From contig JANYDK010000071.1 in assembly GCA_025363655.1 (NCBI GenBank), positions 124,001 through 188,000 of the forward strand: a stretch of 64,000 bases of DNA, in the 5' to 3' direction. Position numbers and translations under genes: made by a program. The notes beneath the pieces are model-generated. The model was not told the origin of the DNA and made no database searches. It saw only the letters and a program-made list of their open reading frames with translations. How positions within the stretch are numbered: the stretch's first letter is position 1; every line of letters starts with the position of its first letter. Positions 24,371 to 30,714 of the stretch are shown here, one piece after another. The DNA is from Deltaproteobacteria bacterium (GTDB lineage Bacteria; Myxococcota_A; Polyangia; Polyangiales; JADJMO01).

Positions 24371-27136
24371 ATGGATCTTCGCTTGGGTCGCCTCGGCGCT
24401 GCGTGCGTCCTCGTCGTCGCATCGGGTCTCGCATCGGGTTGCACCGCGCTCAGCGGCGTCGGCGATCTCGAAGAGGTGCCGTGCGTCGGCGCCGGTTGTG
24501 ACGCGAGCGTCGACTCCTCCCTCGACGTCGGCGACACCCACGTCGACGACACGCGCCCCGACACCACCGACACGAGCGACACCAACGTCGACGACACCGC
24601 CGTCGATTCCGGCTGCGGCGACACCGGCGCCGGCGTCGCGTGTGGTGCGTGCGATCGACTCTGCTCCACGACCAACACCGACAAAGTCTCGTGCAGCGGC
24701 GGCATCTGCACCTCGACGTGTCTCCCGGGCTTCGCCAACTGCACGACGCCGGCAGCGCCTACGCCCGACGATGGCTGCGAGACCAAGCTCGACGCGCTCG
24801 ACTCCTGCGGCGCCTGCGGCAAGAAGTGCGACACCGCCAGCAGCACCGGCGCGGCCTGCACTGGCACGACGTGCACGTACACCGGTTGCAACACCGGCTT
24901 CGGTGATTGCGACACCGCCGCGCCCAACACCAACGGCTGCGAAACCAAGCTCGATTCACCCGACAACTGCAACGGCTGCGGGAAAAAGTGCGACGCCACC
25001 GGCAGCGTCGGCGCGACCTGCTCGGCGACTGGCTGCACGTACGCGTCGTGCGCAACTGGCTTCGGCGATTGCACCAAGACCGCGCCCGATCTCGACGGCT
25101 GCGAGACGCCGCTGAACACGGTGCTCAACTGTTCGGCCTGCGGCACCGCTTGTGACGCGACGACGAGCAGCGGCGCGTCGTGCACCGGCTCCAGCTGCAC
25201 GTACACCGCGTGCAAGGCCGGCTACGGCAATTGCGATACGACCGCTCCCGACAGCAAGGGCTGCGAGACCAAGCTCGACTCCACGGCCAACTGCGGCGGC
25301 TGCGCGCGCGCGTGCGACACCACCAACGTCCTCACCGCGATGTGCGGCGCCAGCGGCGTCTGCGCCTCGACGTGCAAACCGGGCTTCGCCAACTGCTCGA
25401 CTCCGGCCGCGCCCCTCGCCGACGACGGCTGCGAGACCCCGTTCGACGCCAGCTCGTGCGGCGGCTGCGGCAAGGTCTGCGACTCGGTGAACAGCAACGG
25501 CGCCGCCTGCAGCGCCGGCACCAAGTGCACGTACACGAGCTGCAAGAGCGGCTTCGCCGACTGCAACACCACCACCCCCGACACCGACGGCTGCGAGACG
25601 GCGATCAACACGATCACCAACTGCGGCGCCTGCGGCGTGAAGTGCGACACCGCCACCAGCGCCGGCGCCGCGTGCATCGGCGGCAAGTGCGTCTACACCG
25701 GCTGCACCACCGGCTTCGGCAACTGCGACACCACTGGCTCCGACGCCAACGGCTGCGAGTCGCCGCTCAACACGCCGACGAACTGCACGTCGTGCGCGAG
25801 CACCTGCGACGCCGCGCACAGCACCGGCGCGTCGTGCTCCGGCAGCAGCCCGGGCAGCACCTGCACCTTCACGGGGTGCAAAGCGGGCTTCGGCGACTGC
25901 ACGAAGACGAGCCCCGATCTCGACGGCTGCGAAACCGCTCTCAACACCGCCACCAACTGCACGGCGTGCGGCCTCGCGTGCGACACGCTGTAGAGCAACG
26001 GCGCGGCGTGCGCGACGGGCCTTGTCTGCAGCTATTCGTCCTGCAAACCAGGCTTCGCCAACTGCAACACGACCGTGCCCGATCTCGACGGCTGCGAGAC
26101 GTCGACCCTCTCGTCGGTGACCAACTGCGGCGGATGCGGCATTCACTGCGACACCGGCACCAGCACCGGCGCGGTCTGCGTCGCCGGAAAGTGCGTCTAC
26201 ACGGGCTGCTCGGCGGGCTTCGTCGACTGCGACACCACCGGCATCAACTCCAACGGCTGCGAGTCGCCCACCACCTCGACGACCTCGTGCACCGGCTGTG
26301 GCCGCGTCTGCGACACCACGAACAGCACTGGCGCCTCGTGCAGCACGGGAACGACGTGCACGTATTCGGGGTGCAAGGCCGGCTTCGGCAACTGCACCGC
26401 CACCGCGCCCGACCTCGCCGGCTGTGAAACGCCGCTCAACACCGCCAGCAATTGCACCGGCTGCGGGCTCGCCTGCGACACCACGCACAGCACCGGCGCG
26501 GCCTGCGCGGCCGGCACCAGTTGCACGTACACCGCTTGCAATGGCGCTTTCAAGAACTGTGGGGCGACCGCACCCGATCTCGACGGCTGCGAGACCGACA
26601 CCGCTTCGACAGCGACCGCCTGCGGCGCGTGCGGCCGCCTGTGCTCGTCGACCAACGTCTCGGGCTCGACCACATGTGCAGGCGGCGTCTGCACCTCGGC
26701 TTGCGCCAATGGTCCTCCGCCGACGTCTACCCCTCACGCAAACTGCAACAAGCCGGTCTCGCCGACTGCCGACGATGGCTGCGAATGCGACGGTACGGGC
26801 TGCTGCGGCGCGGCATGCCAGACGGCGCACTCCAACGGCAGCCCGTCGCCGGTCGGTCAGACGTATTACGACTGCGTGGCCAAGGGCAATCCGGCCACTG
26901 GAGCTGGCTATTCCGTGACGATGGCCAACGAAGCCGCGGCTGCGTGGCCCGCAACGGGAACCACCTTCGGCAGCACGTGCTCGGCGACGGTCACCAGCAA
27001 CTGCCAGTTCAAAGAGAACACGGCGCATACCATTTGTGTCGCCTGGTGCTACAGCGGGACGCTCGCCGGCCATATGTACGTCGACAGCACCGATTCCTGC
27101 TTCTGCCCGCAGCTGACTGATCCGACCTGGAACTGA
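24371..27136 (+). pseudogene. Cys-rich tandem-repeat lipoprotein, reading frame interrupted by a single TAG
   Basis: One continuous frame of 922 codons, including the final stop, runs from ATG 24371 to TGA 27134-27136, broken only by an amber codon at 25991-25993. The N-terminus is a lipoprotein signal (VASGLASGCTA) with an Asp/Thr spacer. About 13 repeats of 52-57 aa follow, each built as CxxCGxxCD, a GAxC turn, CTYTxC, GFGxC and DGCETxL. The stop lies in repeat 9 (CDTL-stop-SNGAAC), and repeats 10-13 and a unique Cys-containing C-terminus (about 140 aa) continue in the same frame, so no shift is needed to restore it. A C-to-T change of CAG would explain it. A GTG at 26075 is the only convenient restart. 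Either half alone would be a repeat fragment. Could also be a sequencing error. Confidence 0.8.
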
Positions 27137-27163: not shown

Positions 27164-28930
27164 GTGACCCTCGCCCCGCCGAAGCCGACCTCGAACCTCG
27201 CCCCAGGATACCGGCTCGATCGCTACGAGCTCCTCTGTCCGATCGCGCAAGGGGGCATGGCCGCGGTCTGGGTCGGGCGGCAGCACGGAAAGCACGGCTT
27301 CGAGAAGCTCGTCGCCATCAAGACCATCCTCCCCGAGTACGCCAGCGATCTGCAGTTCCAGAAGATGTTCCTCGACGAGGCGCACATCGCCGCCGGCATC
27401 GAGCACCCCAACGTCGCGCAAATTCTCGACCTCGGCGAAGAGCACGACGTGCTCTACATCGCCATGGAGTACGTCGACGGCGACGCCATCAGCAAGCTCC
27501 ACCGCGCGGCCGAGCGGGTGAACGTGCGCATTCCGCACGGCGTCTTGCTCCGGGCGATGGCCGATGCGTGCGCAGGGCTCCACGCGGCCCACGAGCTGCG
27601 CGACAAGGAGGGCAACCTGCTCTCGGTCGTGCACCGGGACGTCTCGCCACAGAACATCCTCGTCAGCCACAAAGGCAGCGCCAAGGTCATCGACTTCGGC
27701 ATCGCCAAGGCGCGCGATCGCATGGGCGGCGAGACCGCGAGCGGCATGCTCAAGGGGAAGATCCAATACATGGCGCCCGAGCAGGCGCTGGGGAAACCGG
27801 TCGATCGTCGCGCCGACATCTGGGCGATGGGCGCCATCCTCTATCACCTGCTCTCGGGGCGACGGCCGTACGACGCGGAGAACCCGCTGGCGACGCTCCA
27901 CCTCTTGACCTCGAGAAAGCCGCCGATGCCGCTCTCGCCGGCGATTCCTCGGCCAATCGTCCGCGTGGTGCAGCGCGCGATGGCGTTCGATCCGCAGAAT
28001 CGTTTCCTCCACGCGCTCGAGATGCAGCTCGCGATCGAGGCGGCGATGATCGAGTGCGAGCTCTCGACCACCAACGTCGACGTCGCCGCGTTCATCTCGC
28101 TGCACCTCTCGCATCGTCAGGCGCGTCGTCGTCAGTCGATCGACCTCGCGCTCAAGGCGGCCGCCGAGCGCGCGCGCGTCCAGCAGCTCCTCCGGCCGCC
28201 GACGCACGATTCGCTGAGCGGCGTCGACATGCGAGGCATCACCACGAGCACGCCGCCGCCGCGTCCCGACATCGGGTCGAGCCCCGGCGTGCACTTGCCA
28301 TCGTCGGTGCTCGAGCCGGCGGAGCCTTCCGGTCCCATCGACGTCAGCGGCATTCCCACGACGCCGCTGGCGCTCCTCACGCCGCGTCCGATGGTGGCGC
28401 CAGTGCTCACCGATTTGTCGTCCGAGGAAGACGTCGCCGACGACGAAGCGCTCACCTCGGCCCTTCCATCGGTCCTTCGTCAACAGCAGCAGACGCGTCG
28501 AAAGCGCGCGATCGTCTTCGGAGGCATCGGCTTCGCGGGCGTCGCCCTCCTCGGGGTGGTGGCGATCGTCTTCGCCTCACGCGGCAAAGGCGTGACAGAG
28601 GCCAAAGGCGAAGAGCGCAGCGAAACGATCGAGACCAAGGCGGGGACGAAGTCGACGGCACCCGACAAGACCGAGAAGAAGACCGAGAAGAGTGCCGAGG
28701 ACCCATCCGGCAAGGCCGTCGCGACCGAAGAGACTTCGAAGAAGCTCGATGAGCCCGCGCCGACGGTGACGGTCGCGAAGGCGCCGACGCCGACGACGAT
28801 CGCCGCCAAGCCTCCGGCAACGACGGTGGCCGCGGTCACTCCGACGCCGACGCCGAAACCGAAGCCGACCTTCGCGCCGGCAGCGACGACCGCAGCGCCG
28901 GCGACGACGACGCAAAACGACGGTTTTTGA
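27164..28930 (+). CDS. Hanks-type Ser/Thr protein kinase, membrane anchored (kinase 1)
   Basis: A 588-aa protein from GTG 27164. The kinase domain (about 18-285) has the Gly loop IAQGGMAAVW, the Lys of VAIKTIL, the catalytic loop VHRDVSPQNIL (about 163), DFGIAKARDR, then MAPEQ and DIWAMGAILYHLLSGRRPY. HRDVSPQN is typical of myxobacterial kinases. After a Ser/Thr/Pro-rich juxtamembrane region comes one transmembrane helix (AIVFGGIGFAGVALLGVVAIV, about 447-467) and a Lys/Glu then Pro/Thr-rich outer tail ending QNDGF. It starts 27 bp after the Cys-repeat gene. A related kinase sits opposite, its stop 3 bp away. Confidence 0.95.
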   Translation: MTLAPPKPTSNLAPGYRLDRYELLCPIAQGGMAAVWVGRQHGKHGFEKLVAIKTILPEYASDLQFQKMFLDEAHIAAGIEHPNVAQILDLGEEHDVLYIAMEYVDGDAISKLHRAAERVNVRIPHGVLLRAMADACAGLHAAHELRDKEGNLLSVVHRDVSPQNILVSHKGSAKVIDFGIAKARDRMGGETASGMLKGKIQYMAPEQALGKPVDRRADIWAMGAILYHLLSGRRPYDAENPLATLHLLTSRKPPMPLSPAIPRPIVRVVQRAMAFDPQNRFLHALEMQLAIEAAMIECELSTTNVDVAAFISLHLSHRQARRRQSIDLALKAAAERARVQQLLRPPTHDSLSGVDMRGITTSTPPPRPDIGSSPGVHLPSSVLEPAEPSGPIDVSGIPTTPLALLTPRPMVAPVLTDLSSEEDVADDEALTSALPSVLRQQQQTRRKRAIVFGGIGFAGVALLGVVAIVFASRGKGVTEAKGEERSETIETKAGTKSTAPDKTEKKTEKSAEDPSGKAVATEETSKKLDEPAPTVTVAKAPTPTTIAAKPPATTVAAVTPTPTPKPKPTFAPAATTAAPATTTQNDGF

Positions 28931-28933
28931 AGC

Positions 28934-30592
28934 CTAGAATCCGTCGTCGGGTTTTTTGGTGGGCGCGGTGCTCGTCGACGGCTTCGTCGGTGCGCCTGGC
29001 TTGAACGGCGGAAACTTGAAAGAAGAGGTCGGCGCTGTCCCGGCCGATGCGCTCGTTCCGGCAGAAGGTTCAGGCGCAGTCGTCGCGCTCGGCTCGATCG
29101 TCGCGCTCGCCGTCGCAGCCGCCATGGTGCTCGTCGCGCCGGTCGTGGTCGCGCTCGCATGCGCGCTCTTCGGCTCTTCGGTGCCAGGCCCTGCGCTCGT
29201 CGGCGGCGCGCTCTTCTTCCCGAGGAGGAGAAATGCGCCGCTGCCGAGGATGAGCGCGCCGAGGAAGAGAGACACCGCGAGGGTGCCACGGTTGCGTGTC
29301 GGCGCAGGAGACGCAGGCAACGCTTCGATCGCCGCAGAGCCGAGCGTCGCGTTCGAGACCTCGGATGGCACGACGCCCCCCGACGAAGGCACGCCGGGCG
29401 CCGAAGCGAGCGCAGTTTCACCGCTGCGAGCGAGTGGATCGACGCCGGGTCCGCTTTGGCCGACGACGGTCACGGCCGAAGGCACCGGCGGGAGAGGCTC
29501 GTCGAGGAAGGTGGGGAGCGGCATCACTCCGCTGGCGCTGATGCTCCCGGTGCCGTCGACCATCAGCGCACGCATGCCGCTCGCCTTGCCGCGTTCGGCG
29601 GCAGCTTGGAGCGCAGCCTTGATCGCCCGACGACGTTGATCGCGTCGATCGCCGAGGTGCTCGTCCATGAACGCACCGACCTGCTCGCTGGTCGTCGAGA
29701 GCTCGGCTTCGTGCATCGCCTCTTCGAGCTCTTGCTGCAGCTCGGCGCAGCTGCCGATGCGCTTGTCGACTTCGAAGGTCATGGCGCGCCGAACGGAGAA
29801 GGCGACCGACGGATGCGCTTCCATGAGCGGCAACGGCGGCCTGCCCGAGGTCAGGAGATGGAGCGTGGCGAGGTGATTTTCCCCGTCGAAAGGCAGATGA
29901 CCGCTGAGCAAATGATAGGCGATGGCGCCGATCGCCCAGACGTCGGCGCGCGCATCGACGTGCTTGCCCATCGCCTGCTCGGGCGGCATGTAGTGGACCT
30001 TGCCCTTGAGCAGGCCCGCGCCGGTGTCGCCAGCCATGCGATCGCGCGCCTTGGCGATGCCGAAGTCGATGAGCTTGGCGACGCCCTTCTGCGTCACCAT
30101 GATGTTCTGCGGCGAGACGTCGCGATGGACGACGTGGAGCTCGTTGCCGTCGCGATCACGCAGCTCGTGCGCCGCCTGCAAGCCTGCGCACGCGTCGGCG
30201 AGGATGCGCAGGACGATGCCCGGCGGCATCTTCATCTTCTTCTTGTCGCAGGCGCGCTGCAGCTTCGAGAGCGCATCGCCGTCGACGAACTCCATCGCCA
30301 GATAAAGGACGCCAGCCTCTTCACCGAGATCGAGGATTTGCGCGACGTTGACGTGCTCGATCGCCGCCGCGATGTGCGCCTCGTCGAGGAACATCTGGTG
30401 GAAGCGCGGATCGGTCGCGTACTGCGGGAGGATGGTCTTGATGGCGACGAGCTTCTCGAAGCCGTGCTTGCCGCGCTGCCTCGCGACCCACACCGAAGCC
30501 ATGCCGCCTTGCGCGATCGGACAAAGCAGCTCGTACCGATCGAGTCGGTAGCCGGGCACCAGCGGCGATGGTTTGGGCGGAAAGAGGCTCAA
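28934..30592 (-). CDS. Hanks-type Ser/Thr protein kinase, membrane anchored (kinase 2)
   Basis: About 552 aa from a TTG at 30592, chosen by aligning SLFPPKPSPLVPGYRLDRYE with the start of kinase 1 (TLAPPKPTSNLAPGYRLDRYE); the open frame extends to a GTG at 30661. The kinase domain has IAQGGMASVW, VAIKTIL, VHRDVSPQNIM, DFGIAKARDR, MPPEQ (where kinase 1 has MAPEQ) and DVWAIGAIAYHLLSGHLPF. One transmembrane helix (LAVSLFLGALILGSGAFLLL) precedes an Ala/Thr/Ser/Pro-rich tail ending PDDGF. The two kinases are clear paralogues in a tail-to-tail arrangement, so an inverted duplication is likely. Confidence 0.93.
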   Translation of the reverse strand: MSLFPPKPSPLVPGYRLDRYELLCPIAQGGMASVWVARQRGKHGFEKLVAIKTILPQYATDPRFHQMFLDEAHIAAAIEHVNVAQILDLGEEAGVLYLAMEFVDGDALSKLQRACDKKKMKMPPGIVLRILADACAGLQAAHELRDRDGNELHVVHRDVSPQNIMVTQKGVAKLIDFGIAKARDRMAGDTGAGLLKGKVHYMPPEQAMGKHVDARADVWAIGAIAYHLLSGHLPFDGENHLATLHLLTSGRPPLPLMEAHPSVAFSVRRAMTFEVDKRIGSCAELQQELEEAMHEAELSTTSEQVGAFMDEHLGDRRDQRRRAIKAALQAAAERGKASGMRALMVDGTGSISASGVMPLPTFLDEPLPPVPSAVTVVGQSGPGVDPLARSGETALASAPGVPSSGGVVPSEVSNATLGSAAIEALPASPAPTRNRGTLAVSLFLGALILGSGAFLLLGKKSAPPTSAGPGTEEPKSAHASATTTGATSTMAAATASATIEPSATTAPEPSAGTSASAGTAPTSSFKFPPFKPGAPTKPSTSTAPTKKPDDGF

Positions 30593-30714
30593 CGTCTGCA
30601 AGACGAGTATCCCGCAGCCGGCGCGGCGAGGCGAGTCGGTGCCGGCTCGCGCGAGAACCACCGCTATTTTCTCGGTCGATCACGCGCTCGGGCCGGGCGA
30701 GCCGAGCGATCGTT

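Follow-up and report, generated by a model that had tools for sequence, protein, structure and literature searches.

Organisation of the locus

The window, by which we mean the whole 64,000-nucleotide stretch of DNA analysed here, lies in a 312-kb contig (C116) of a draft genome of 9.03 Mb that consists of 150 contigs and is 96% complete. On the forward strand, the frame at 24371-27136 is open save for one TAG at 25991-25993, which takes the place of residue 541 and is preceded by 540 codons and followed by 380. The frame contains 13 Cys-rich units, each ending in GCE followed by T, S or C, and the TAG is found inside unit 9; beyond it lie the remainder of this unit, units 10-13 and a unique C-terminus that ends in DPTWN. 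The original prediction had described a 13-unit frame with a single in-frame TAG and 380 codons beyond it, which was borne out by the frame and the unit count, and its placing of units 10-13 and a unique C-terminus after the stop was confirmed by translation of the frame. The features of the locus are as follows.

24371-24442, + strand: lipoprotein signal peptide and lipobox (MDLRLGRLGAACVLVVASGLASGC), assigned by sequence inspection
24443-24610, + strand: short LEE motif followed by an Asp/Thr-rich linker, of a kind shared by the orthologues
24611-25990, + strand: Cys-rich units 1-8 and the start of unit 9, ahead of the stop
25991-25993, + strand: in-frame TAG within unit 9, seen in none of the relatives read
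25994-26788, + strand: remainder of unit 9 and units 10-13, 48% identical to the orthologue at locus L098
26789-27133, + strand: conserved C-terminal domain ending in DPTWN, present in 12 of 184 genomes across the order, its own included
27134-27136, + strand: natural TGA stop of the long frame, at an end position shared by the orthologues
27164-28930, + strand: PknB-like Ser/Thr protein kinase that has a single hydrophobic segment, starting 27 nt downstream of the long frame

On inspection, residues 20-24 of the long frame read LASGC and, with a signal peptide carrying this lipobox cysteine, the product is a predicted bacterial lipoprotein. Judging from this anatomy, the signal peptide and lipobox would anchor the protein to a membrane, and a flexible acidic linker would then lead into a stalk built from 13 disulfide-rich units, followed by the conserved C-terminal domain.

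The open frame past the TAG is not due to chance, since the 380 codons beyond it retain 48 Cys codons, a GC3 of 0.85 and an identity to the best orthologue (L098) equal to that of the upstream part (48.0% downstream and 48.8% upstream). GC3 upstream of the TAG was 0.91, position-specific GC was alike on both sides, and no further stop was present in the downstream codons. In its sequence organisation, the locus is one gene for a predicted large surface lipoprotein, and the downstream part is no second gene.

Kinases 49-65% identical to the one at 27164-28930 were found near Cys-rich genes at loci L098, L099, L101, L102 and L103. Some adjacency of this kind is expected by chance because each genome of the family gave at least 120 kinase matches, and a functional link between the kinase and the Cys-rich gene is only suggested. 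The kinase at 27164-28930 and a second, similar PknB-like kinase at 28934-30661 are convergent, with almost no gap between them.

The stop in the light of relatives and of the repeat

Proteins with the Cys-rich repeat were found in 30 of 38 related genomes, indicating that the module is widespread in the order. At locus L103 (G002:C1198), two short tandem Cys-rich genes of ~3 units each carry the same C-terminal domain. Many of the same Cys-rich units were also seen in a frame of >2300 residues at locus L168 (JACPGS010000005.1), on a contig labelled Candidatus Magasanikbacteria, and either a binning error or transfer may account for them.

The original prediction had proposed comparing the same gene in close relatives. 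In all four other genomes of the family (G001-G004) the repeats and the C-terminal domain lie in one unbroken frame, with 3 to >10 units. Apart from its TAG, the window gene belongs with them in an orthologue group defined by a lipobox, an LEE motif, an acidic linker, Cys-rich units and the C-terminal domain in a single frame. A detector of stops flanked by family repeats flagged the window TAG, which served as positive control, and found no interrupted homologue in the relatives' loci that were fetched. Apparent internal stops in some repeat-protein matches of related genomes were not reproduced by this detector in the loci fetched. A scan for the C-terminal domain with a single protein as query matched relatives and not this species. 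As far as could be seen from the sequences of the relatives read, which included no other genome of the genus, the TAG appears to be private to this genome.

These comparisons bear on the reading that two separate genes are present, the second starting at GTG 26075. This GTG exists, but it is located mid-repeat, in unit 9, no Shine-Dalgarno-like sequence immediately precedes it, and its product would have no signal peptide. The original prediction would have accepted two genes had relatives carried the same stop together with a start at 26075; they show instead one frame and no stop, and we regard this reading as extremely improbable.

The column of the repeat in which the stop falls is occupied in the other 12 units of the protein by Asn (5), Thr (3), His (2), Ser (1) and Gly (1). 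The four residues named for this column in the original prediction, Asn, Ser, Thr and His, are therefore all present, and the single Gly was missed. Its derivation of the TAG from a CAG codon finds no support in the column, where Gln was found in 0 of these 12 units and in 1 of 210 units from relatives; no CAG codon occurs among the 540 codons upstream of the TAG.

Within the 380 downstream codons, 114 single changes are able to create a stop. With no second stop and all Cys taken as retained, neutral divergence since any loss was capped at ~2%, a simple estimate that assumes unbiased substitution. Because these two features limit divergence, the TAG, if real, would be young.

Read-through, assembly error or recent mutation

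Functional read-through or amber decoding, yielding short and long isoforms, would be consistent with the open and constrained frame downstream of the TAG, and with a hairpin that begins 6 nt after it (fold z ~-2.2). However, the equivalent positions in two other units gave a fold z of -2.3, and the hairpin was rejected as a special read-through signal since these units fold as strongly. RF1 is encoded in the genome (prfA above cut-off), and TAG is the stop of 104 of 464 sampled long genes (~22%) and hence is not depleted. No tRNA with a CUA anticodon was present among those located by Rfam and ARAGORN, the latter run on part of this 96% complete genome, where it located tRNAs that Rfam had missed. 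The only matches to a strict tRNA pattern for a CUA anticodon were in the D-arms of known tRNAs for Gln, Glu and Ser. A suppressor tRNA may have been missed, because the ARAGORN scan was partial and Rfam misses some tRNAs. Matches to PylS were far below cut-off.

None of the marks of amber decoding (a CUA tRNA, PylS, TAG depletion or absence of RF1) was found in these searches, and genome-wide recoding of TAG was rejected given the presence of RF1, the common use of TAG as a stop, and the failure to find a CUA anticodon among the tRNAs located or PylS above cut-off. Nor is the stop conserved among relatives, as would be looked for in programmed read-through, there being no interrupted homologue in their loci. 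Read-through is disfavoured because the stop is private, RF1 is present, TAG is common, no CUA tRNA or PylS was found and the fold is ordinary. We consider programmed read-through unlikely, and functional read-through or amber decoding in general improbable. A genuine amber codon kept in a surface repeat gene, with low-level natural read-through giving short and long isoforms, is very improbable. Of the options given in the original prediction, namely a very recent nonsense mutation, a sequencing error and read-through, the first two remain tenable, and the third is disfavoured by the private stop and RF1 and by the failure to find a CUA tRNA or PylS.

The TAG is thus very probably a private, non-programmed break, due to a base of the assembly that is wrong or belongs to a minority, or else to a very recent nonsense allele. 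A control for the quality of the assembly was provided by rpoB of the same draft, which has an in-frame TAG on the - strand (L086, G000:C52, 576-578) where two relatives read GAG. RpoB is essential, and its TAG is therefore very unlikely to be a functional allele; at least one TAG in this draft is implausible. The rpoB gene spans a break between contigs C52 and C47, which overlap by exactly 141 bases, as is typical of a de Bruijn assembler, and we infer that the draft is a metagenome assembly. The rpoB case is an imperfect analogue, since its TAG is close to the end of a contig (~576 bases away) and that of the window is deep in a 312-kb contig.

We also surveyed ~2 Mb of the genome, sampled in stretches, for interruptions using codon statistics. 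Few candidates were obtained, and obvious stop interruptions of ordinary genes were very rare. On reading their protein strings, most candidates were taken as gene junctions or antisense frames, and rpoB was the only clear interruption. The survey missed the window gene itself, which has unusual codon usage, and because of this blindness it undercounts genes of unusual composition.

Two weak in-frame stop candidates from the survey lie at position 13007 of L181 and position 7624 of L209. Near contig ends, 13 tRNA genes were found at L078 (G000:C58:2066-7368) and 6 at L083 (G000:C94:27107-35177), several of which score low in Rfam or escaped its search; the two loci are possibly one tRNA array split by assembly.

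A consensus error or a minority-strain base, with a sense codon in the main allele and the full protein being made, has about an even chance of being correct. It is favoured by the rpoB TAG, which lies in an essential gene at a codon that is GAG in relatives, by the 141-base contig overlap of de Bruijn type, and by a frame, Cys pattern and GC3 that are otherwise perfect, but the position of the window TAG well inside a long contig and the scarcity of other suspicious stops across ~2 Mb argue against it. A real and very recent nonsense mutation, which would truncate the lipoprotein and turn the gene into an incipient pseudogene, is a serious candidate that falls somewhat short of an even chance. 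Such a young event would suit both the private nature of the TAG and the lack of further decay; the rpoB TAG, however, shows this draft to contain at least one nonsense codon that is implausible.

An assembly error would mean that the protein is intact. A real TAG would give a truncated lipoprotein of 540 residues, from which units 10-13 and the C-terminal domain are missing, and decay of the downstream part would already be unrestrained. In either form of this private break, the case is most likely an ordinary one, that of a stray stop in a surface-repeat lipoprotein of a widespread type, and it suggests that an isolated in-frame stop in a draft be weighed against control genes, rpoB for example, before any proposal of recoding.

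The Cys-rich unit and known families

The original prediction had called the repeat an under-described surface module, which is fair: no Pfam family matched the window protein, and NCBIfam NF041328 (MXAN_6577-like cysteine-rich protein) scored below its cut-off. A literature search on MXAN_6577 and related terms returned nothing usable. A structural model of two units was confident (pLDDT 90.8), and neither a matching fold nor a clear sequence relative was found for it in the PDB; the model of the C-terminal domain was poor (pLDDT 37). A repeat that is common in the order, has no Pfam model or solved relative, and often lies beside a Ser/Thr kinase merits description as a family.

NF041328 describes the same kind of Cys-rich unit, and matched 21 of 29 two-unit segments tested (best E 8e-9). 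With whole proteins, the downstream part of the window protein reached 17.6 bits, the upstream part gave no match, and a relative scored 65.5 bits, all under the curated cut-off of 100 bits. The NF041328 model is of 145 residues, whereas the window protein has 13 units and a distinct C-terminal domain.

The STIG1 and CPL1-like families were named from plant and fungal proteins. Weak matches to Pfam STIG1 (PF04885) were seen in 5 of 29 two-unit segments (best E 0.0097) and to CPL1-like (PF21671) in 6 of 29 (best E 0.00018). The likeness to both lies in the Cys pattern, and the first segment of the window protein matches neither.

TraA of Myxococcus reportedly carries Cys-rich repeats. It is a myxobacterial surface protein of outer-membrane exchange (PMC3325183). 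By description alone, the window protein is like TraA in being a surface protein with Cys-rich repeats, and differs from it in being a predicted lipoprotein that ends in DPTWN.
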